Positions 4,076-21,079 of a stretch of DNA of 64,000 nucleotides are shown here, in pieces. Location of the stretch: contig NZ_QNRK01000029.1 in assembly GCF_003315135.1 (NCBI RefSeq), positions 1 to 64,000 of the forward strand, read 5' to 3'. How positions within the stretch are numbered: the stretch's first letter is position 1; each line of letters opens with the position of its first letter. The translations under genes and the position numbers were made by a program. The DNA is from Roseiarcus fermentans. GTDB lineage: Bacteria > Pseudomonadota > Alphaproteobacteria > Rhizobiales > Beijerinckiaceae. Under the pieces are notes generated by a model. It ran no database searches. It worked only from the letters and a program-made list of their open reading frames with translations, and was not told the origin of the DNA.

Positions 4076-4363
4076 CTATCCGACGCCGAGGGCCTTTCGC
4101 AAGACCTGGTTCATCCGTGCTTGCCATCCCGGCCCGCTCGCGCGCAGGGCGGCGAGCACGTCGGGGTCGAGGCGCACGGAAATCTGTGTCTTCGGGCTGG
4201 CCAGCTTCGGGCGCCCGCGGCGGCGTGTGAGCGTGCCCTGGGCCTCGCGGACGACCTTGCCGCCGACGGCGTATTCGGCCCGCTCGATCTGCGCGTCCGT
4301 CCATTCCGGGGCGTCGTCGGGGTCAGCCCATTCGGGCGCGGACTTTGGCTGCTTCGCGTTCAT
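4076..4363 (-). CDS. brnA: BrnA-family antitoxin
   Basis: This encodes a 95-aa antitoxin of the type II BrnT/BrnA system. The C-terminal half (about residues 52-95) is a ribbon-helix-helix DNA-binding domain (TQISVRLDPDVLAALRASG, then WQARMNQVLRKALG). The N-terminal half (PEWTDAQIERAE...) is the segment that in BrnA contacts the toxin. Its start lies inside brnT, overlapping it by 41 bp, the usual brnTA order and coupling. In characterised systems BrnA or the complex represses its own promoter; here a matching candidate operator lies at 4601-4649. Confidence 0.9.
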   Translation of the reverse strand: MNAKQPKSAPEWADPDDAPEWTDAQIERAEYAVGGKVVREAQGTLTRRRGRPKLASPKTQISVRLDPDVLAALRASGPGWQARMNQVLRKALGVG

Positions 4364-11911: not shown

Positions 11912-14900
11912 ATGAGAATCGAGCGGCACTACACCGAAGCGGGCGCTTCCCCCTATGACGCGATCGCGTTTGCGGCGACCCGGAGCGAGATCCGCAACCC
12001 CGACGGCTCGGTGGTGTTCGCGCTCGACAACATCGAGGTCCCGGCCGCCTGGAGCCAGGTCGCGGCCGACGTGCTCGCCCAGAAATATTTCCGCAAGGCG
12101 GGCGTGCCGGCGCGCCTGAAGCGGGTGGAGGAAATGGACGTGCCGTCGTTCCTGTGGCGCTCGGTTCCCGACGAGGAGGCGCTGGAGGCGCTGCCCAAGG
12201 CCGAGCGCGCCGGCTCCGAGACCTCGGCCCGGCAGGTGTTCGACCGGCTCGCCGGCGCCTGGGCCTATTGGGGCTGGAAGGCCGGCGTGTTCGACCGCGA
12301 GGACGACGCGCGCGCCTATTACGACGAGATGCGCGCCATGCTCGCCCGCCAGATCGCGGCCCCCAACAGCCCGCAATGGTTCAACACCGGCCTGCACTGG
12401 GCCTACGGCGTCGACGGGCCCGCTCAAGGGCACTATTACGTCGACTTCGAAACGGCCAAGCTGGTCAAGGCGAAGTCGGCCTACGAGCATCCCCAGCCGC
12501 ATGCCTGTTTCATTCAGTCGGTCGCCGACGACCTCGTCAACGAGGGCGGCATCATGGACCTGTGGGTGCGCGAGGCGCGCCTGTTCAAGTACGGCTCGGG
12601 CACCGGCTCCAACTTCTCCGCCCTGCGCGGCGAGAACGAAAAGCTGTCGGGCGGCGGCCGCTCCTCGGGCCTGATGTCGTTCCTGAAGATCGGCGACCGG
12701 GCGGCGGGCGCGATCAAGTCGGGCGGCACGACGCGGCGCGCGGCCAAGATGGTGGTGGTCGACGTCGACCACCCCGACATCGAATCCTACATCGACTGGA
12801 AGGTGAAGGAGGAGCAGAAGGTCGCCGCGCTCGCCGCCGGCTCGAAGGTGGTCAAGCGCCATCTCGCGGCGATCCTGAAGGCCTGCGTCAATTGCCAGGG
12901 CTCGGGCGACGACTGCTTCAACGTCGAGAAGAACCCGGCGCTCAAGCGCGAGGTGAAGCTCGCCCGCAGAAACGACGTCCCCGACGGCGTCATCAAGCGC
13001 GTCATCCAGGAGGCCCGGCAGGGCAGGACCCGGCTCGAATTCGACACCTACGACACCGACTGGGAATCCGAGGCCTATCTCACCGTCTCGGGCCAGAACT
13101 CCAACAATTCGGTGCGCGTCACCGACGCCTTCCTGCACGCGGTGGAAGCGGATTCCGACTGGAACCTGACCGCGCGCCTCAGCGGCAAGACCACGAAGAC
13201 CGTCAAGGCGCGGAGCCTGTGGGAGAAGATCGGCTACGCCGCCTGGGCCTCGGCCGATCCGGGCCTGCAATACCACACCACCATCAACGACTGGCACACC
13301 TGCCCGGCGTCGGGGCCGATCCGGGCGTCAAATCCTTGCGTGACCGGGGACACACTCGTCGCCACAGCGGATGGACTGGAGCGCATCGCGTCCCTCGTCG
13401 GCAAGTCGGGGCGGGTGATCGGCGCCGACGGGCAGCCGCATCTCGTCACGAAAATCTTCCCGACCGGCCGCAAGCCGGTGTTCTGGCTCACCACGAAGGC
13501 CGGCTATCGCCTGCGCCTGACCGAAGACCATGTGGTGCTGACCGAGAACCGCGGCGGCGTGGCGGCGAAGGATCTGTCGCCGGACGACGTGATCCTGCTT
13601 CAGGGCGCGGGCTTCGGCCGCAAGGCGCTGGCGCGCGACGTCGCCTTCGGGGTCGGGCTGGCCGTCGGCGACGGCTGCCTCGTGCGCTCCGTCATCGCCG
13701 AGCGGCCGCAGGAGGTCGTCATTCTGACCATGCACGCCAACGAGCGCGGCGTTCTGGAGACGGTGGCGCGGGCGGTGACCGAGGAGAAGCTGTTGCGCAA
13801 GGCGGTCGGATCGCCGGGCCGCAACGACGGCGTTTCGGTCACGGACGGCGCCCCCGGGGCCCGGCTGGCTTTCGGCTCCCGCCCGGTGGTCGACCTCTTC
13901 AAGCAGTTCGCGGTGCTGGACGAACGGTCGGACCGCAAGCGGTTCACCGACGAGGTCTACAGCCTCGACCGCCAAAGCCTGTCGGCGCTGCTCAGCGGCG
14001 TCTTCACCGCCGACGGAACGGTCGCCAACAGCGGCGAGAAATCGCAGTACGTCTCGCTCGACTCGACCTCGCTCGAGCTTCTGCGCCAGGTCCAGTTGCT
14101 GCTGCTGTCGTTCGGCGTGAAGGCGAAGCTCTACCAAAACCGTCGCCCGGGCGCTCTCGTGTCGCTTCTGCCGGACGGCGCCGGCGGGCATAAGTCCTAC
14201 CCGGTCAAGCAGATGCATTCGCTGCGGATCAGCCGGTCGTCGCGCTTCGTGTTCGAGCGCGAGATCGGCTTCCATCCGGAGAGCCCGAAGAGCGCGGCGC
14301 TGGCGAAGCTCAACGCCGAAGTCGGCGTGTACGAGGACCGCCTCGCCGATCGCGTCGCCTCGTTCGAGCCGGCCGGGGAAGAGGACGTGTTCGATCTGAC
14401 CGAGCCGTCGACGCATCATTTCTGCGCCAACGGCGTCATCGTCCACAATTGCTCGGAATACATGTTCCTCGACGACACGGCGTGCAACCTCGCCTCGCTG
14501 AACCTCATGCAGTTCCTGAACCCGGAGACCAAGGTCTTCGACATCGTCGCCTACGAGCACGCCGTCCGCCTGTGGACGCTGACGCTGGAAATCTCGGTGG
14601 CGATGGCGCAGTTCCCCTCGCGCGAAATCGCGCGCCTCTCCTACGAGTACCGCACGCTCGGCCTCGGCTACGCCAACATCGGCGGGCTCCTGATGTCCTG
14701 CGGCATCCCCTACGATTCGGACGAGGGGCGGGCGATCTGCGGCGCGCTCAGCGCCGTCATGACCGGCCGCGCCTATGCGACCTCGGCCGAAATCGCCGCC
14801 GGGAGGGGCGCCTTCCCCGGCTACGCGCCGAACGCCGAGGCGATGCTGCGGGTGATCCGCAACCATAAGCGCGCCGCCGATGGCGAGGTTTCCGGCTACG

Positions 14901-16780
14901 AGAGCCTGTCGGTCGCCCCGACGCCGCTCGACCATGCCTCGCTCGTCAAGGCCGGCCCGGCCTTCGCCCCGTTGGGCGACGCGGCGCGCGCCGCCTGGAG
15001 CGCCGCGCTGACGCTCGGTCAAGCGCACGGCTACCGCAACGCCCAGGTGTCGGTGGTCGCCCCGACCGGCACGATCGGCCTCGTCATGGACTGCGACACC
15101 ACCGGCATCGAGCCCGACTTCGCGCTGGTGAAGTTCAAAAAGCTCGCCGGCGGCGGCTATTTCAAGATCATCAACCGCGCCGTTCCCGACGCCTTGCGCG
15201 CGCTCGGCTACGACGAGCGGCGCATCGCCGACATGATCGCCTGGGCCGTCGGCCGGGCGACGCTCGCCAACGCGCCCGGGATCAACCACGCCGCGCTGCG
15301 CGCCAGAGGCCTGCCGGAGGCGTCGATCGACAAGGTGGAGGGCGCGCTGAAAGGGGCGTTCGACATCCGTTTCGTGTTCAACAAGTGGACGCTCGGGGCC
15401 GAGGTGCTGAGCGGGGCGCTGAAGATCCCGGCCGAGCGCTACGAGGCGGCGGGCTTCGACCTGCTCGCAGCGCTCGGCTTCTCGAAGGCGGAGATCGAGG
15501 CGGCGAACGTATTCGCCTGCGGCGCCATGACCTTGGAGGGCGCGCCTCATCTCAAACTGGAACATTACCCGGTGTTCGACTGCGCCAACCCCTGCGGCCG
15601 CACGGGAAAACGCTACCTGTCGGTCGAGAGCCACATCCGCATGATGGCGGCGGCGCAGCCGTTCATCTCGGGCGCGATCTCGAAGACGATCAACATGCCC
15701 AACGACGCCACCGTCGAGGATTGCAAGGACGCCTACATGCTGAGCTGGCGCCTCGCCCTCAAGGCCAACGCCCTCTACCGCGACGGCTCGAAACTGTCGC
15801 AGCCCTTGAACAGCCAGCTGATCGAGAGCGACGACGAGGAGGAGGACGCGCTCGAGACGCTGATCGCCGCCTCCGCCCCGGCGCGCGCGGCGCAGGTGGC
15901 GGAAAAGATCGTCGAGCGGGTGATCGAGCGCGTCGAGCGCTTTCGCGAGCGGGAGAAGCTGCCCGATCGCCGCAAGGGCTACACCCAGAAGGCGGTGGTC
16001 GGCGGCCACAAGGTGTATTTGCGCACCGGCGAGTACCAGGACGGGCGCCTGGGCGAGATCTTCATCGACATGCACAAGGAGGGCGCGGCCTTCCGCAGCC
16101 TGATGAACAACTTCGCCATCGCGATCTCGATCGGCCTGCAGTACGGCGTGCCGCTGGACGAGTTCGTCGAGGCCTTCACCTTCACCCGCTTCGAGCCGGC
16201 CGGCCTGGTGCAGGGCAACGACGCGATCAAGAACGCCACCTCGATTCTCGACTACATTTTCCGGGAGCTGGCGATCTCGTATCTCGGCCGGAACGATCTC
16301 GCCCATGTGGCCCCGGAGGACATCGGGAATACTGTGCTCGGCGGCGGGGTCGGCCAGGACAAGGGGCCCACGGCCGGCCCCGGCGCGGCGGCGGTGATCT
16401 CGAATGGGCTCGTCCGCGGCCGGCCGGGCGACAAGCTGATGCTGGTGCGTGGTCAGACTGGCGGCGAAGCCCCCACGGTGCGGGCGGCCGGCGGGGCAGG
16501 GGCCTACGTCCTCCAGGGCGCGACGGCGCTGAAGGGCGACCTCGCCGAGCAAGAACAGTCAGCGATCGAGATTGGCAAGACTTCAACTGGTGACGCGTTG
16601 CGCCTTGAATTTTCTCCACCTGAGTCGAGTGCTCACTCCTCAATCAAGAAGAGTCGTGAAGAAGCACGAATGAAGGGCTATGTCGGAGAAGCTTGCCCGG
16701 AATGTGGAAACTTCACTATGGTTAGAAATGGAACTTGCCTGAAATGTGACACATGCGGCAGCACTACTGGATGTTCTTGA
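11912..16780 (+). CDS. nrdJ: B12-dependent class II ribonucleotide reductase, intein-containing, with replaced C-terminal tail
   Basis: The precursor has 1622 residues, of which 371 are an intein (476-846), leaving a 1251-aa adenosylcobalamin-dependent ribonucleotide reductase that makes deoxyribonucleotides. Evidence includes [10 protein letters not shown], the [12 protein letters not shown] region, NPCSE after splicing, CNLASLNL and [26 protein letters not shown]-terminal zinc-ribbon tail (1587-1622; Cys 1595, 1598, 1609, 1612, 1615, 1621) probably re-reduces the active site. From codon 1547 onward (16550) the DNA turns AT rich and belongs to an inserted cassette that replaced the original tail, now stranded at 17634-17822. 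The ATG at 11912 ([11 protein letters not shown]) matches the family; an upstream extension does not. The SD is weak. Confidence 0.95.
13337..14449 (+). other. Intein in NrdJ with LAGLIDADG homing endonuclease
   Basis: This is an in-frame 371-aa intein. It begins with Cys1 in block A ([13 protein letters not shown]) and has block B with His65 (TEDHVVLT). Two LAGLIDADG-type motifs lie near 104-113 ([10 protein letters not shown]) and 218-227 ([10 protein letters not shown]), so the endonuclease looks intact. Blocks F and G end VIVHN, followed by the +1 Cys (codon at 14450). Splicing joins SNP to CSEYMF. That +1 cysteine is in the N-x-C-x-E motif, which in ribonucleotide reductases holds the thiyl-radical cysteine, so the enzyme is inert until splicing. 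Confidence 0.93.
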
Positions 16781-16787
16781 GGTCAAA

Positions 16788-17441
16788 ATGGTTAGCGATC
16801 ACAAGGTACGTCGTCGACGTTACGAGGATGAAATTAAAGCGTCAGCTGATGCTTGGCGTAATAAGATTTGCGGAAATATCGCTAAGGATAATTTTAATAT
16901 TACACAATGTATTAAGGTTCTTACGCAAAATAGCTGGATAAGATCGTATGATACTCGCCAATACCATGAATTGAGAGTTAGGTTTTACAACCAAGGGCGA
17001 TGCCAACCATTTGCGTACGTAGAGCACAATCCAACCATTCTGTATTGCGATCATGAAGTTTGGTCCGAGGCATGTATTGGGGAGCCAAAGGCGAGATTCA
17101 TACTGGCGCACGAGCTGGGTCACGTATTGTTGCACGACCATTACGCGCAACCTTTTACTGAGAACCTCAAGCGTTCCGCTTGGATGAAGGAAGAGTCAGG
17201 AGAGTGGCAAGCGAATACATTCGCTGACTATTTTCTAGTATCAGATGTGGCGATTGAGAGGTATCTAACGCCAACGGCTATTGCGATCTACTGTGGTGTC
17301 GAAAAGATTGTGGCGCTCCGACGGTTGGGGCCCGGGTTCGGCTATGTCGGCGAAAGTTGTGAGCGATGTGGAAATTTTACTTTGGTGCGGAATGGGAGGA
17401 GCTTGATATGTGATACGTGCGGTCAAACAACTTCATGTTAG
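16788..17441 (+). CDS. ImmA/IrrE-type metallopeptidase with NrdJ-like zinc-ribbon tail
   Basis: This encodes a 217-aa protein. The zinc-peptidase motif HELGH is at residues 108-112 (AHELGHVLLHDH), with a downstream region WQANTFADYFLV typical of ImmA/IrrE (COG2856) proteins, which cleave or sense repressor-like partners. Residues 185-217 copy the NrdJ C-terminal tail: GYVGESCERCGNFTLVRNG, then CDTCG and a final Cys (C191, C194, C208, C211, C217). I know of no ImmA protein with an RNR tail. GAGG overlapping the nrdJ stop is its ribosome site, so translation is coupled to nrdJ. The gene is clearly AT richer than the host. The fusion suggests it binds a partner of NrdJ or NrdJ itself; this is inference. 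Confidence 0.85.
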   Translation: MVSDHKVRRRRYEDEIKASADAWRNKICGNIAKDNFNITQCIKVLTQNSWIRSYDTRQYHELRVRFYNQGRCQPFAYVEHNPTILYCDHEVWSEACIGEPKARFILAHELGHVLLHDHYAQPFTENLKRSAWMKEESGEWQANTFADYFLVSDVAIERYLTPTAIAIYCGVEKIVALRRLGPGFGYVGESCERCGNFTLVRNGRSLICDTCGQTTSC

Positions 17442-17461
17442 CATTTAAGGAGTGAATCAAG

Positions 17462-17593
17462 ATGACTACGTCAAAGCAGGACGCTTCCAAAGCGAGCAAA
17501 CTTCTGAAAAGTAAGTCGACAACAAAGATCGTTAAATCTGTGGCTGCATCCGATCTTGCACAAGCGAAACATAAAGCCACCAAGAAAAAATGA
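17462..17593 (+). CDS. Small Lys/Ser/Ala-rich basic protein, unknown function
   Basis: This is a 43-aa ORF (MTTSKQDASKASKLLKSKS..., ending KATKKK) with a good ribosome site (AAGGAG, about 12 nt upstream of the ATG). Twelve of 43 residues are Lys and there are no aromatics, so it is probably disordered or a single amphipathic helix. It lies 20 bp after the peptidase gene inside the same cassette and shares its AT-rich composition. It could be a substrate, antidote or nucleic-acid-binding partner of the peptidase. I do not recognise a named family. Confidence 0.65.
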   Translation: MTTSKQDASKASKLLKSKSTTKIVKSVAASDLAQAKHKATKKK

Positions 17594-17633
17594 AAAAGCC
17601 GCCCATCTTGGACTACGGGGATTGCGGTGCGAG

Positions 17634-17822
17634 CCCGCGCCGCTGACGCTCGGCGGGATCGACTTCGCCCCGGCCCGCGAAACCGTCGCCGGCAAGCGCG
17701 CGGAAGCGCGGATGAAGGGCTACGTCGGCGAGGCTTGCCCGGAATGCGGGAATTTTACCATGGTGCGCAATGGGACGTGTTTGAAGTGCGATACGTGCGG
17801 GAGCACGACGGGGTGCTCGTGA
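17634..17822 (+). pseudogene. Displaced original 3' end of nrdJ (orphan tail)
   Basis: This GC-rich frame encodes PAPLTLGGIDFAPARE, then [20 protein letters not shown] and the rest of a complete zinc ribbon ending TTGCS and TGA. The last 36 residues are identical to the tail now used by nrdJ although the codons differ at many third positions. It has no start or ribosome site of its own and is the former nrdJ C-terminus separated by the insertion. The hicA ATG lies 8 bp after its stop. Confidence 0.85.
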
Positions 17823-17830
17823 CGTGACGC

Positions 17831-18025
17831 ATGCCGACGACGGTCAAGGACATCATCCGTCGCCTTGAAGACGACGGATGGGCCCTCGTGGCGACAAGGG
17901 GCAGCCATCGCCAGTTCAGGCACAAGACCAAGAAAGGCCGGGTCACCGTACCCGGCAAGCTCAGCGCCGATTTGCAACCGGGCACACTGAAGAGCATCCT
18001 GCGTCAGGCCGGCCTCGAGGAGTGA
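17831..18025 (+). CDS. hicA: HicA-family mRNA interferase toxin
   Basis: This encodes a 64-aa toxin of the type II HicAB system with a double-stranded-RNA-binding-like fold. HicA cleaves mRNA independently of translation. The signature RGSHRQFRHKTKKGRVTVPG contains the catalytic His, and the end GTLKSILRQAGL is typical. It starts 8 bp after the displaced nrdJ tail and lacks a Shine-Dalgarno sequence, suggesting it was originally translated by coupling to nrdJ. The gene pair thus looks like an earlier cargo loaded behind nrdJ. hicB follows after 4 bp. Confidence 0.92.
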   Translation: MPTTVKDIIRRLEDDGWALVATRGSHRQFRHKTKKGRVTVPGKLSADLQPGTLKSILRQAGLEE

Positions 18026-18029
18026 CTCC

Positions 18030-18251
18030 ATGCGTTACGCCGTCGTGATCGAGAAGGGCGAGCGGAACTACTCGGCTTATGTCCCGGATTTGCCGGGTTG
18101 CGTGTCGGTCGGCGATACCCTGGAAGAGGTGAAGGCCGAAATCCGTGAGGCGATTGAGTTCCACCTCGAAGGCATGCGGGAGGACGGATCGCCGATCCCG
18201 CCGCCTTCGAGCTGGGCGGAGTATGTGGAAGTGGAGGTAAGGGCCGCTTGA
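18030..18251 (+). CDS. hicB: HicB-family antitoxin
   Basis: This encodes a 73-aa antitoxin with the partial RNase-H-like fold of HicB: MRYAVVIEKGERNYSAYVPDLPGCVSVGDT, then EEVKAEIREAIEFHLEGM and GSPIPPPSS. It is the short form, ending soon after the core, so it lacks the extra C-terminal DNA-binding domain found in longer HicB proteins; autoregulation may therefore be weak or absent. AGGAGTGACTCC overlaps the end of hicA and supplies its ribosome site. No separate promoter is visible for the pair. Confidence 0.92.
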   Translation: MRYAVVIEKGERNYSAYVPDLPGCVSVGDTLEEVKAEIREAIEFHLEGMREDGSPIPPPSSWAEYVEVEVRAA

Positions 18252-18313
18252 GGGAACGGGGAAACGCGGGGCGACAGATTAAGACAGGGAATTCGTATCC
18301 GTCATCGCAAACC

Positions 18314-18346
18314 GACAAGCGGGCGGAGGCGCGGATGAAAGGCTAG
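18314..18346 (+). pseudogene. Third nrdJ tail fragment
   Basis: The frame reads DKRAEARMKG and a stop. It matches the segment before the zinc ribbon in the displaced tail (GKRAEARMKGY): 26 of 29 bases agree over 18317-18345. It is cut exactly after the bases encoding the start of the next Tyr codon, where a half-palindrome of the 20-kb repeat family begins (18346-18364). It is best explained as an older nrdJ end pushed downstream by the hicAB insertion and then broken by a repeat element. Confidence 0.65.
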
Positions 18347-18364
18347 GACAAGCCCGGCCATGAC
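18346..18364. repeat. Half copy of the palindromic element end
   Basis: GGACAAGCCCGGCCATGAC equals the right half of the right end of the elements at 20019-21079. It directly abuts the broken nrdJ tail and precedes a GIY-YIG gene copy by the same spacer as in the other copies. Confidence 0.75.
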
Positions 18365-18401
18365 GGTGTCATGCTGAAGCGAGGAGGGCGCGGGCAAGCC
18401 G

Positions 18402-18577
18402 ATGCGCGGGGGGTGGGATTACATCATGACCAACCGGCCGAACGGCACGCTCTATACCGGCGTGACGTCGAACATCGGCGTCGCGCCTATGAGCATCGCG
18501 AGGGGTTGGTGGAAGGCTTCACCAAGCGCTACGGCCTGAAGCGCCTCGTCTATATGGAGTTCTACGAGCCCATCACC
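18402..18577 (+). pseudogene. GIY-YIG nuclease gene copy A, frameshifted and truncated
   Basis: The sequence matches the intact gene at 20560-20850 almost base for base from its ATG, but one C is missing near 18480 (GGCGTCGC for GGCCGTCGC), which shifts the frame. The match stops at about 18577 (CATCACC), where unrelated sequence leading to the TIG-like gene begins. It has the same upstream spacer (GAGGAGGGCGCGGGCAAGCC) as the other copies. Confidence 0.85.
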
Positions 18578-19834: not shown

Positions 19835-20018
19835 AGTCACTTCAACCACCAATTGCGGCTGGATGCCGACTTGACCGCAAGTCGAGTCGCGTCAGCAGCG
19901 CCCCATTCGGCAGACCAAGCCGTCGACCTCTTGCCGAACCTTGTTTTCCGAGCCTTCAGCCCTGTCAAGGGCGCGCTGGAAGCGCCGACTCCGGCGGGCT
20001 TCGCCCCTTGACCTCCTC

Positions 20019-20191
20019 GTCATGGCCGGGCTTGTCCCGGCCATCCACGCCGTGACGCTACTCCGACACTAACCGATTGGCCCTGAAGGCAGTCGAGCCG
20101 GCGCGCTACACATTCAGCCCAGAAGGCGCCACCCAGACTGAGGTCCTCGACGCGGAACCGCGTGGATGGCCGGGACAAGCCCGGCCATGAC
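20019..20191. repeat. Palindrome-bounded element, copy I
   Basis: This 173-bp unit begins with GTCATGGCCGGGCTTGTCCC, part of a hairpin, and ends with the exact inverted form (GGGACAAGCCCGGCCATGAC). Each end is itself a near-perfect palindrome (ATGGCCGGG, 5 nt, CCCGGCCAT). The core of about 115 bp is shared with copies II and III. A conserved flank of about 35 bp (CTCCGGCGGGCTTCGCCC) precedes it. Confidence 0.88.
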
Positions 20192-20228
20192 GGTGTAATA
20201 CGGAAGCGAGGAGGGCGCGGGCAAGCCG

Positions 20229-20307
20229 ATGCGCGGGAGTTGGGTCTACATCATGACCAACCGGCCGAACGGCACGCTCTATACCGGCGTGACGTCGAAC
20301 ATCGGCC
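20229..20307 (+). pseudogene. GIY-YIG nuclease gene copy B, 5' fragment
   Basis: The first 26 codons match the intact copy (MRGSWVYIMTNRPNGTLYTG...) and stop at AACATCGGCC. There the sequence switches to the flank of palindrome element II. The upstream spacer from element I is the same as that in front of the intact copy. Confidence 0.85.
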
Positions 20308-20350
20308 AAAGCGCGCCGGCTCCCGCGGGCTTCGCCCCTCGACCCCGCTC

Positions 20351-20522
20351 GTCATGGCCGGGCTTGTCCCGGCCATCCACGCCGTGGCGCTGCGCCGGCG
20401 CCGGCGGATTGGCCCTGAACGCAGTCGAACCGGAGCGCTACGCATTCAGCCCGGGAGGCGCCACCAGACCAAGATCCTCGACGCGGAACCGCGTGGATGG
20501 CCGGGACAAGCCCGGCCATGAC
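20351..20522. repeat. Palindrome-bounded element, copy II
   Basis: A 172-bp copy of the element at 20019-20191 with the same hairpin ends and core. It sits directly behind the truncated GIY-YIG copy B and 37 bp before the intact copy C. Confidence 0.88.
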
Positions 20523-20559
20523 AGTGTAATGTTGAAGTGAGGAGGGCGCGGGCAAGCCG

Positions 20560-20850
20560 ATGCGCGGGGGCTGGGTCTATATCATGACCAACCGGCCGAA
20601 CGGCACGCTCTATACCGGCGTGACGTCGAACATCGGCCGTCGCGCCTATGAGCATCGCGAGGGGTTGGTGGAAGGATTCACCAAGCGCTACGGCCTGAAG
20701 CGCCTCGTCTATATGGAGTTCTACGAGCGCATCACCGACGCCATCCAGCGGGAGTCGAACATGAAGCATTGGCCGCGCGCCTGGAAGGCGCAGCTGATTG
20801 TGAATTACAATCCAGGTTGGGTCGACTTGTTCGAGACCCTGAACCAGTAG
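20560..20850 (+). CDS. GIY-YIG family endonuclease (intact copy C)
   Basis: This encodes a 96-aa single-domain GIY-YIG nuclease of the YhbQ/UvrC-like group. The paired motif is WVYIMTNRPNGTLYTG (YIM replacing the GIY element, YTG replacing YIG), followed by RRAYEHREG with the conserved Arg, the KRYGLKRLVYMEFYE block, and the metal-binding Glu in the AIQRESNMKHW segment. The end is WVDLFETL. Such small proteins are common and often multicopy in Hyphomicrobiales; function unproven. GAGGAGGG lies 14 bp upstream. Two broken copies (18402, 20229) have the same 5' flank, so gene and palindrome element seem to have multiplied together. Confidence 0.88.
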   Translation: MRGGWVYIMTNRPNGTLYTGVTSNIGRRAYEHREGLVEGFTKRYGLKRLVYMEFYERITDAIQRESNMKHWPRAWKAQLIVNYNPGWVDLFETLNQ

Positions 20851-20905
20851 ACGTCAACGCGCTGACAGCGCGCCGACTCCGGCGGGCTTCGCCCTTGACC
20901 CCCTC

Positions 20906-21079
20906 GTCATGGCCGGGCTTGTCCCGGCCATCCACGCCGTGCCGCTGCGCCGACGCCGGCGGATTGGCCCTGAAGGCAGCCGAACCGGCGCGCTAGGCAT
21001 TCCAGCCCGGAAGGCGCCACCCAGACCAAGCTCCTCGACGCGGAACCGCGTGGATGGCCGGGACAAGCCCGGCCATGAC
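20906..21079. repeat. Palindrome-bounded element, copy III
   Basis: A 174-bp copy with the same ends, core and upstream flank as I and II, located 55 bp after the intact GIY-YIG gene. It is not followed by another GIY-YIG copy. Confidence 0.88.

Follow-up and report, generated by a model that had tools for sequence, protein, structure and literature searches.

A probable cassette, with no recombinase in view, that replaces the 3' end of nrdJ in Roseiarcus fermentans and related bacteria

The nrdJ locus of Roseiarcus fermentans

The nrdJ gene of the alphaproteobacterium Roseiarcus fermentans, which encodes a class II ribonucleotide reductase (RNR), ends within an AT-rich segment that is probably a gene-end replacement cassette lacking a visible recombinase. 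The locus lies in the window analysed here, a stretch of 64,000 nucleotides (positions 1 to 64,000 of the forward strand of contig NZ_QNRK01000029.1, NCBI RefSeq assembly GCF_003315135.1), for which an earlier, sequence-only reading had proposed an insertion into nrdJ. Compared genomes and loci are referred to below by G and L numbers, respectively, R. fermentans being G000.

The nrdJ open reading frame (ORF) occupies positions 11912..16780 of the plus strand, with the start codon set by similarity, and matches the Pfam models Ribonuc_red_lgC, Ribonuc_red_2_N, Intein_splicing and LAGLIDADG_3. The final host bases ahead of the insert are a GAGC word at 16547..16550, followed at 16551..16780 (plus strand) by an AT-rich replacement linker and tail of NrdJ (t1; tail 16670-16780). 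An M78 (IrrE/ImmA-type) protease of 217 aa is encoded on the plus strand at 16788..17441, starting 7 nt past the nrdJ stop, which is overlain by a GAGG ahead of the M78 gene; the protease itself ends in a third NrdJ-like tail, a C-terminal zinc ribbon (t3, 17334..17438, plus strand, 69% identity). Host sequence returns with a second GAGC at 17631..17634, and the displaced native linker and tail (t2; tail 17712-17822) follow as an orphan at 17635..17822 of the plus strand. The insert is low in GC and about 1,084 bp long, with GAGC at either end. Its insertion point is the variable linker right after the conserved GATALK motif of nrdJ, a position that is constant across cassettes.

The tails t1 and t2 encode 36 identical residues, as the sequence-only reading had noticed, and diverge at third positions, with 2, 0 and 23 differences at codon positions 1, 2 and 3 (37 codons including the stop). 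The GC content at third codon positions (GC3) is 0.40-0.41 in t1, 0.78 in t2 and 0.94 in the nrdJ body. In bins of 15 codons, it stays at 0.80-1.00 over the last 180 body codons and drops at the insertion point from 0.93 through 0.60 at the border to 0.40-0.47 in the linker and tail. What had been called recoding is most readily taken as foreign, AT-rich codon usage rather than as evidence of a purpose. Excision from GAGC to GAGC, joining 16550 to 17635, yields a single open frame from host nrdJ into t2, in agreement with the earlier proposal, and no recombinase is visible in the insert, whose ORFs comprise the end of nrdJ, the protease gene and one small ORF.

Within the nrdJ gene of the window, an intein lies at 13337-14449, as judged by inspection; G004 and G010 have no intein there, and the flanks align gap-free.

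The empty site in genomes of the same genus

The predicted empty site is present in two genomes of the same genus, G004 and G008. Relatives with a natively AT-rich nrdJ end and no empty site, the contrary outcome envisaged by the sequence-only reading, were not encountered: in the five same-genus genomes read (G002, G004, G006, G008 and G010), the linker is uninterrupted and lacks the AT-rich end. An nrdJ-tail match occurs in 6 of 10 same-genus genomes, with one tail each, and the window genome has three. Alignment of the window with G004 breaks off at 16548 (position 4152 of the G004 locus) and restarts at 17630 (4150), and that with G008 breaks off at 16549 (locus position 786) and restarts at 17631 (784); t2 is 83% identical to G004 over 17630-17815. 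Because the left block of G004 stops where the right block starts, about 1,084 bp were gained without loss of host DNA. Judged from these alignments, the insertion is clean, with no host base removed and a few bases repeated.

Recurrence of the arrangement

With the protease domain, devoid of its tail, as the query and a threshold of E 1e-6, 37 of the 298 genomes of the family match, and nrdJ lies directly upstream of the protease in 19 of 30 fetched loci. The proteases of these 19 loci comprise 14 of a shorter type (207-231 aa) and 4 of a longer type (about 250 aa), G386 being untyped; the longer-type neighbours (G052, G426, G372 and G359), the nrdJ tails of which look native, are included in the 19 and stand outside the cassette comparison. 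The gap between nrdJ and the M78 gene is 6-19 nt in ten short-type loci. In tblastn comparisons, the protease C-terminus is clearly NrdJ-tail-like (E <=1e-8) in seven genomes (G000, G057, G462, G371, G420, G384 and G545) and weakly so in G018, G514, G446 and the longer-type G372 and G052.

Outside the family, the order-wide search (297 genomes) produced, among the matches listed, G108 as the sole further protease match, with nrdJ and a frameshifted M78 gene ending in an NrdJ-like ribbon. Class-wide, 10 of 385 genomes match the protease at E 1e-10, and eight of these ten (all but G000 and G018) have no nrdJ tail in the fetched flanks. A scan of named genomes gave at least 80 loci, of which 12 were checked and 7 have nrdJ beside an M78 gene, namely those of 'Frankia sp. 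RB7', Methylosinus sp. Sm6, a Devosia metagenome-assembled genome (MAG), Methylocystis sp. KS32, a Hyphomicrobiales MAG, a Rhodospirillaceae MAG (opposite strand) and a Mesorhizobium. In the record 'Frankia sp. RB7' (L126), the name of which looks doubtful, the nrdJ body is 74% identical to that of the window and two M78 genes stand in a row.

Tail repeats are associated with the protease. A family-wide tail search found at least one tail match in 263 of 298 genomes and two or more in 17, several of the latter owing to copies at contig ends, to paralogues or to ribbons in other proteins. Among 162 distinct nrdJ ends, each with at least 900 nt downstream, 11 are followed by a tail repeat: 9 of the 24 with an M78 motif downstream vs 2 of the 138 without (Fisher p 3.5e-7); the reverse-complemented tail, used as a control, gave 0 repeats in 162. 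These rates are not prevalences because M78 loci were deliberately over-represented in the set, and a pair of the nine M78 cases (RB7 and Devosia) had been retrieved with the ribbon as part of the query. In the nine M78 carriers, the displaced and current copies are 69-83% identical in DNA; the two repeats without M78 are those of G022 (small basic ORF and decayed tail) and G277 (decayed tail).

End replacement with displacement of the native tail thus recurs in other genera. The earlier expectation that other cargos with their own tails would be found at the same place is borne out weakly: 9 of the 11 tail repeats carry M78, and the candidates for other cargos are only HicAB in the window and the small basic ORF in G022. 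The idea that the site is a hotspot open to cargo of every kind was rejected, 78 further genomes of the family having yielded 0 orphan tails and one M78 neighbour of another type (G548); these genomes were taken in order of match score and mostly from outside the known carriers, in six of them the contig ends within about 1.5 kb of nrdJ, and decayed tails would escape the pattern used. Also discarded were G236 and G265 as orphan-tail cases, their nrdJ ends being cut by contig borders, and G518 as a cassette case, where M78 lies upstream of nrdJ and the nrdJ tail is frameshifted (not counted). A phage origin was not retained: phages gave no DNA match, the single protein match was to Escherichia phage LLS (31% across 52% of the query length), and among the matches listed, none of 62 viral M78 loci has an NrdJ-like ribbon. 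A plasmid origin was dropped as well; there were two DNA matches, spanning 111 and 95 bp in the region of the nrdJ tail, and one of them is annotated as RNR.

Recurrence also bears on the quality of the assembly. The window genome is a draft of 90 contigs, and contigs of G011 and G097 terminate at nrdJ tails, so that tail repeats may break assemblies; the same layout is found, however, within contigs of 4.79 Mb (G018) and 4.55 Mb (G384), and an assembly error in the window is extremely improbable.

Codon composition and the fate of the native tails

From the nrdJ body to the tail, GC3 falls by 0.54 in the window genome, 0.46 in G371, 0.35 in G018, G420 and G386, 0.22 in G384, 0.21 in G527 and 0.14 in G545. 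In the 78 further genomes of the family, the mean fall is 0.08 (sd 0.08, maximum 0.29), with values above 0.2 in 4 of 78 and no linker fall beyond 0.25. Given this background maximum, five cases (G000, G371, G018, G420 and G386) are outside the range by the tail alone; G527 is outside it by its linker (GC3 0.84 to 0.50), and for G384 and G545 the argument comes from residues and from the displaced copies. In G108, the nrdJ GC3 switches from 0.87 to 0.33-0.53. The switch at the linker is sharp in the window, G018, G371, G527 and G108 and milder in G420, G384 and G386, and the compared relatives are flat.

The native tail persists as an orphan in four genomes (G000, G018, G420 and G384) and forms the protease C-terminus in two (G371 and G545). 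In the protease frame of G371, GC3 is 0.20-0.45 per 20 codons and reaches 0.70 and 0.85 in the last 40 codons, which encode nearly the NrdJ tail; in that of G545, it rises from 0.45 to 0.85 in the last 20 codons, and host-type residues are found in the ends of both proteases. The native tail in the Methylocystis genus g18 reads ECANF...KCETCG (G407, G441 and G027), and the current NrdJ of G384 and G545 reads ECGNF...KCDTCGG; the native residue form is carried by the G384 orphan and by the G545 protease end. By this evidence, the displaced tail in G545 and G371 has become a domain of the predicted cargo protein.

A duplicated nrdJ end could also stem from local duplication, with no foreign unit. 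In G271, the nrdJ end is copied, almost unchanged, with about 470 bp of flank (L067:1-5048 and L068:8226-8825, at contig borders), and in G277, from another family, a decaying copy without M78 lies about 0.6 kb downstream (L111:7150-7320, 84% over 169 nt). For the cassettes, however, a local duplication with subsequent divergence is very unlikely in view of the codon-usage switch at one border with flat controls, the foreign residues in the tails of G384, G545 and G420, and the empty site in G004 and G008.

The junctions are relevant to how the insert arrived. Right junctions vary, falling in the linker in the window and in the tail in G371 and G545, with base-level ends mapped in the window. 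Compared with relatives, linker sequence is missing in G018 (roughly 36-73 bp), G420 (49 bp) and G384 (114 bp), these figures being upper estimates because linkers vary between species. An insertion made by an enzyme, that is, a non-autonomous element with GAGC as the 4-bp target duplication and with a transposase or integrase acting in trans or since lost, would account for the clean insertion with a short direct repeat and for the constant position after GATALK; elements at guaA, radC and dusA of Mesorhizobium, described in a portion of PMC8627217, offer a parallel. The differing right junctions, the missing linker bases, the lack of a recombinase gene in the cassettes read and the lack of matching terminal repeats by eye, with no systematic search for them, make this explanation unlikely.

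The M78 protease and its NrdJ-like ribbon

The protease of the window matches PF06114 with 29.8 bits (cut-off 22). The best PDB match of its AlphaFold model (mean predicted local distance difference test score 84.9) is 3dti, the Deinococcus IrrE/PprI (E 3.9e-4, TM 0.47/0.42). Residues H108, E109 and H112 of the HExxH motif are invariant in 14 aligned M78 proteins; in the G386 protease, the motif was not picked up by pattern search, and this protein was left out of the alignment. PADLOC gave weak matches to RmrA and CapP, in the protease core only, and no repressor-like helix-turn-helix (HTH) partner gene was recognised beside the protease gene.

Residues 185-217 of the protease match the NCBIfam NrdJ model (E 3.1e-9). 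In Stackebrandtia NrdJ, according to excerpts of Loderer 2017 (PMC5704485), four of the six C-terminal cysteines are modelled on zinc and two form the terminal pair; none of the cysteine variants reported there is active with tris(2-carboxyethyl)phosphine (TCEP), and zinc is lower in three of the four zinc variants. Both zinc knuckles are kept in all 14 short-type protease ends counted, with a gap of one residue in one of them. Of the redox pair, the first cysteine survives in three of these ends (G371, G420 and Devosia) and the second in five (G000, G462, G371, G545 and RB7), both together only in G371. The count covers 14 of 18 short-type proteins, with G514, G042, G433 and G386 left out, and leans to NrdJ-like ribbons because the second knuckle of G514 is incomplete and the ribbon of G042 and G433 is different. 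The protease ribbon seems to have kept its fold and lost its chemistry, which favours docking or bait as its function.

Apart from the M78 proteins, small, otherwise dissimilar proteins ending in a six-cysteine NrdJ-like ribbon are encoded at L208:4360-4662, L207:5199-5516, L112:5334-5690 and L306-L308. Some of these loci are phage-like, L306 to L308 being viral contigs; L207 adjoins an integrase-like ORF, and L208 belongs to genome G511. The L208 protein is matched by 36 phage records, the match being confined to its front part.

Conflict between the protease and NrdJ phylogenies

G462 and G420 belong to one genus, and their NrdJ proteins are 94% identical vs 32% for their M78 proteases. The G420 protease is 68% identical to that of G384, from another genus, and groups with those of G384 and G545 (100/100), whereas in the NrdJ tree G420 groups with G462 (95/89); branches are long, and other placements are unsure. 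Because the two trees conflict, we infer that the protease moves between genera.

Alternatively, the protease would not be part of a mobile unit but a regulator in the nrdJ operon that senses redox state or zinc through its ribbon, much as Deinococcus IrrE reacts to zinc and redox signals, with repeated recombination only reshuffling it. The tight coupling to nrdJ and the restriction of NrdJ-like ribbons, in this set, to nrdJ neighbours are in line with such a regulator, as are the activation of IrrE through zinc and the sensing of single-stranded DNA by PprI, as presented in parts of PMC7907104 and PMC10904395, respectively. The patchy spread across the family, the identity of only 23-66% between the M78 neighbours of one genus, and the foreign codon usage of the cassette and of the nrdJ end itself point the other way, and we consider this explanation somewhat unlikely.

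Proposed mechanism

At the level of sequence, the insertion, the end replacement, the displacement, the recurrence and the conflict between the protease and NrdJ trees are established. In the mechanism that we propose, the unit would begin with an nrdJ linker that runs into an entire, synonymous zinc-ribbon tail; an M78 gene would follow within a few bases and, in R. fermentans, a small basic ORF after that. NrdJ would remain whole, the incoming unit supplying the missing end, and the M78 gene would be close enough to the nrdJ stop for joint translation. The native tail would be shifted downstream and persist there on its own as an orphan; with a right junction inside the tail, it would instead form the end of the protease. 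Such units may move by homologous recombination, with the nrdJ body as the left arm and the tail copies as the right arm. The captured ribbon, with its zinc knuckles kept and its redox pair mostly lost, could serve as a docking or bait domain that directs the protease to NrdJ or to NrdJ-tail binders. A role in conflict or in stress response appears the most likely one, although we put it forward tentatively. More doubtful is a selfish or defensive unit that holds the gene end hostage, the reductase depending on the cassette tail and the displaced tail acting as the integrated decoy of the protease that senses attackers or mimics of the NrdJ tail; under such a scenario, the synonymous divergence of the two tails would hinder loop-out.

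Several observations weigh against the gene-end replacement cassette. The identities of M78 and NrdJ correlate (16 pairs; Mantel r 0.38, a value reached in 0 of 2000 permutations), so that their history is in part one of shared descent. The composition of the nrdJ tail is native-like in seven short-type neighbours (G057, G462, G514, G042, G446, G433 and G500), and the protease can therefore sit there without end replacement; the tail falls of G527 and G384 (0.21-0.22) are inside the range of the 78 other genomes. With an average identity of 70-77% to 167 native tails, which share 80% among themselves, the t1 sequences point to no donor. In the window, t1 matches the host tail in 36 of 36 residues despite its foreign-looking codons. 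Finally, the right junction in the window lies in the linker and not in the tail, and the insertion is a clean one flanked by a 4-bp repeat; the action of an enzyme would explain this as well as, or better than, recombination between tails.

Neighbouring features

Between the protease gene and the right GAGC lies the small basic ORF (43 aa, 17462..17593, plus strand), relatives of which are found near nrdJ or M78 in three genomes, behind the M78 gene in G527 and behind nrdJ in G022 and G581. Located beside the protease, it is a candidate toxin-antitoxin partner only.

The orphan is followed on the plus strand by HicA (17831..18025, PF07927, E 1.6e-20) and HicB (18030..18251, PF15919, E 2.9e-17), and behind these by a fragment of a further nrdJ tail copy (18311..18344, plus strand), in which 33 of 34 bases equal the start of the G004 nrdJ tail. 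A pattern fitting both the fragment and the orphan occurs at exactly two places in the 6.79 Mb genome (<=3 mismatches) and has no match in 100 shuffles of the window. HicAB, too, would thus have a copy of the nrdJ tail on either side, a layout that the similar entry of an earlier unit could have left; the fragment is short and the case single. Further downstream, at 18306-18577 and 20005-21000 of the window, recur ORFs that resemble GIY-YIG nucleases, along with palindromic repeats of the GGCCGGGACAAGCCCGGCC type, one of them abutting the tail fragment at 18344. In G004 (L071:4366-4882) and G008 (L074:998-1502), another two-gene pair, which we take to be DUF4160/DUF2442-like, lies behind nrdJ.

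Relation to known systems and implications

Among the top-listed papers in the open-licence part of PMC, no description of this arrangement was found. Its closest likenesses include contact-dependent growth inhibition (CDI; cdiA-CT/cdiI) and Rhs loci, where, as a section of PMC4927057 relates, a new 3' end repeatedly enters a gene and the old end is left downstream as an orphan in the same orientation. In contrast to CDI and Rhs, nrdJ encodes a metabolic enzyme, the new end is equivalent to the old one and is not a new toxin, and the displaced end can end the cargo protein. Because the target is a ribonucleotide reductase and not a secreted effector with a toxin tip and an immunity gene, the cassette does not belong to these systems, and the likeness is one of mechanism only.

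Phage 21/e14 integrates at the 3' end of icd and supplies that gene with a working end. Elements at the 3' ends of protein-coding genes, such as the integrative and conjugative elements at guaA treated in part of PMC8627217, resemble the nrdJ cassette in that the element supplies a working 3' end. Unlike such integrase-borne elements, the cassette is about 1.1 kb long, encodes an nrdJ end, a protease and a small ORF with no integrase, and has variable right junctions. The protease resembles the M78/ImmA-IrrE/PprI proteins, including CapP, in its HExxH core and in the IrrE fold as the best structural match, and differs from them in having no recognised repressor-like HTH partner alongside and in ending in an NrdJ-like ribbon. 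With the C-terminal zinc domain of class II RNR, as portrayed in excerpts of Loderer 2017 (PMC5704485), t1, t2 and other nrdJ tails share the six-cysteine pattern, whereas the protease ribbon keeps the knuckles and retains both redox cysteines only in G371.

The sequence-only reading had further regarded nrdJ as essential, which does not follow from the present data: the window genome also encodes class I NrdA and NrdB, and G108 likewise has a class I RNR. A class I RNR small subunit was not found in 7 of the 9 carriers searched (G371 being 82% complete and G420 having a second large-subunit gene), and in those genomes the incoming tail may therefore have had to work at once.

The nrdJ locus suggests that foreign DNA can settle in a conserved enzyme gene, with no visible integrase and without breaking the gene, by bringing an equivalent end. 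It also provides a natural case in which gene-end exchange would make a two-domain protein, a protease joined to a reductase tail. If the tail is indeed a bait, the protease would amount to a bacterial counterpart of integrated decoys, directed at nucleotide metabolism.

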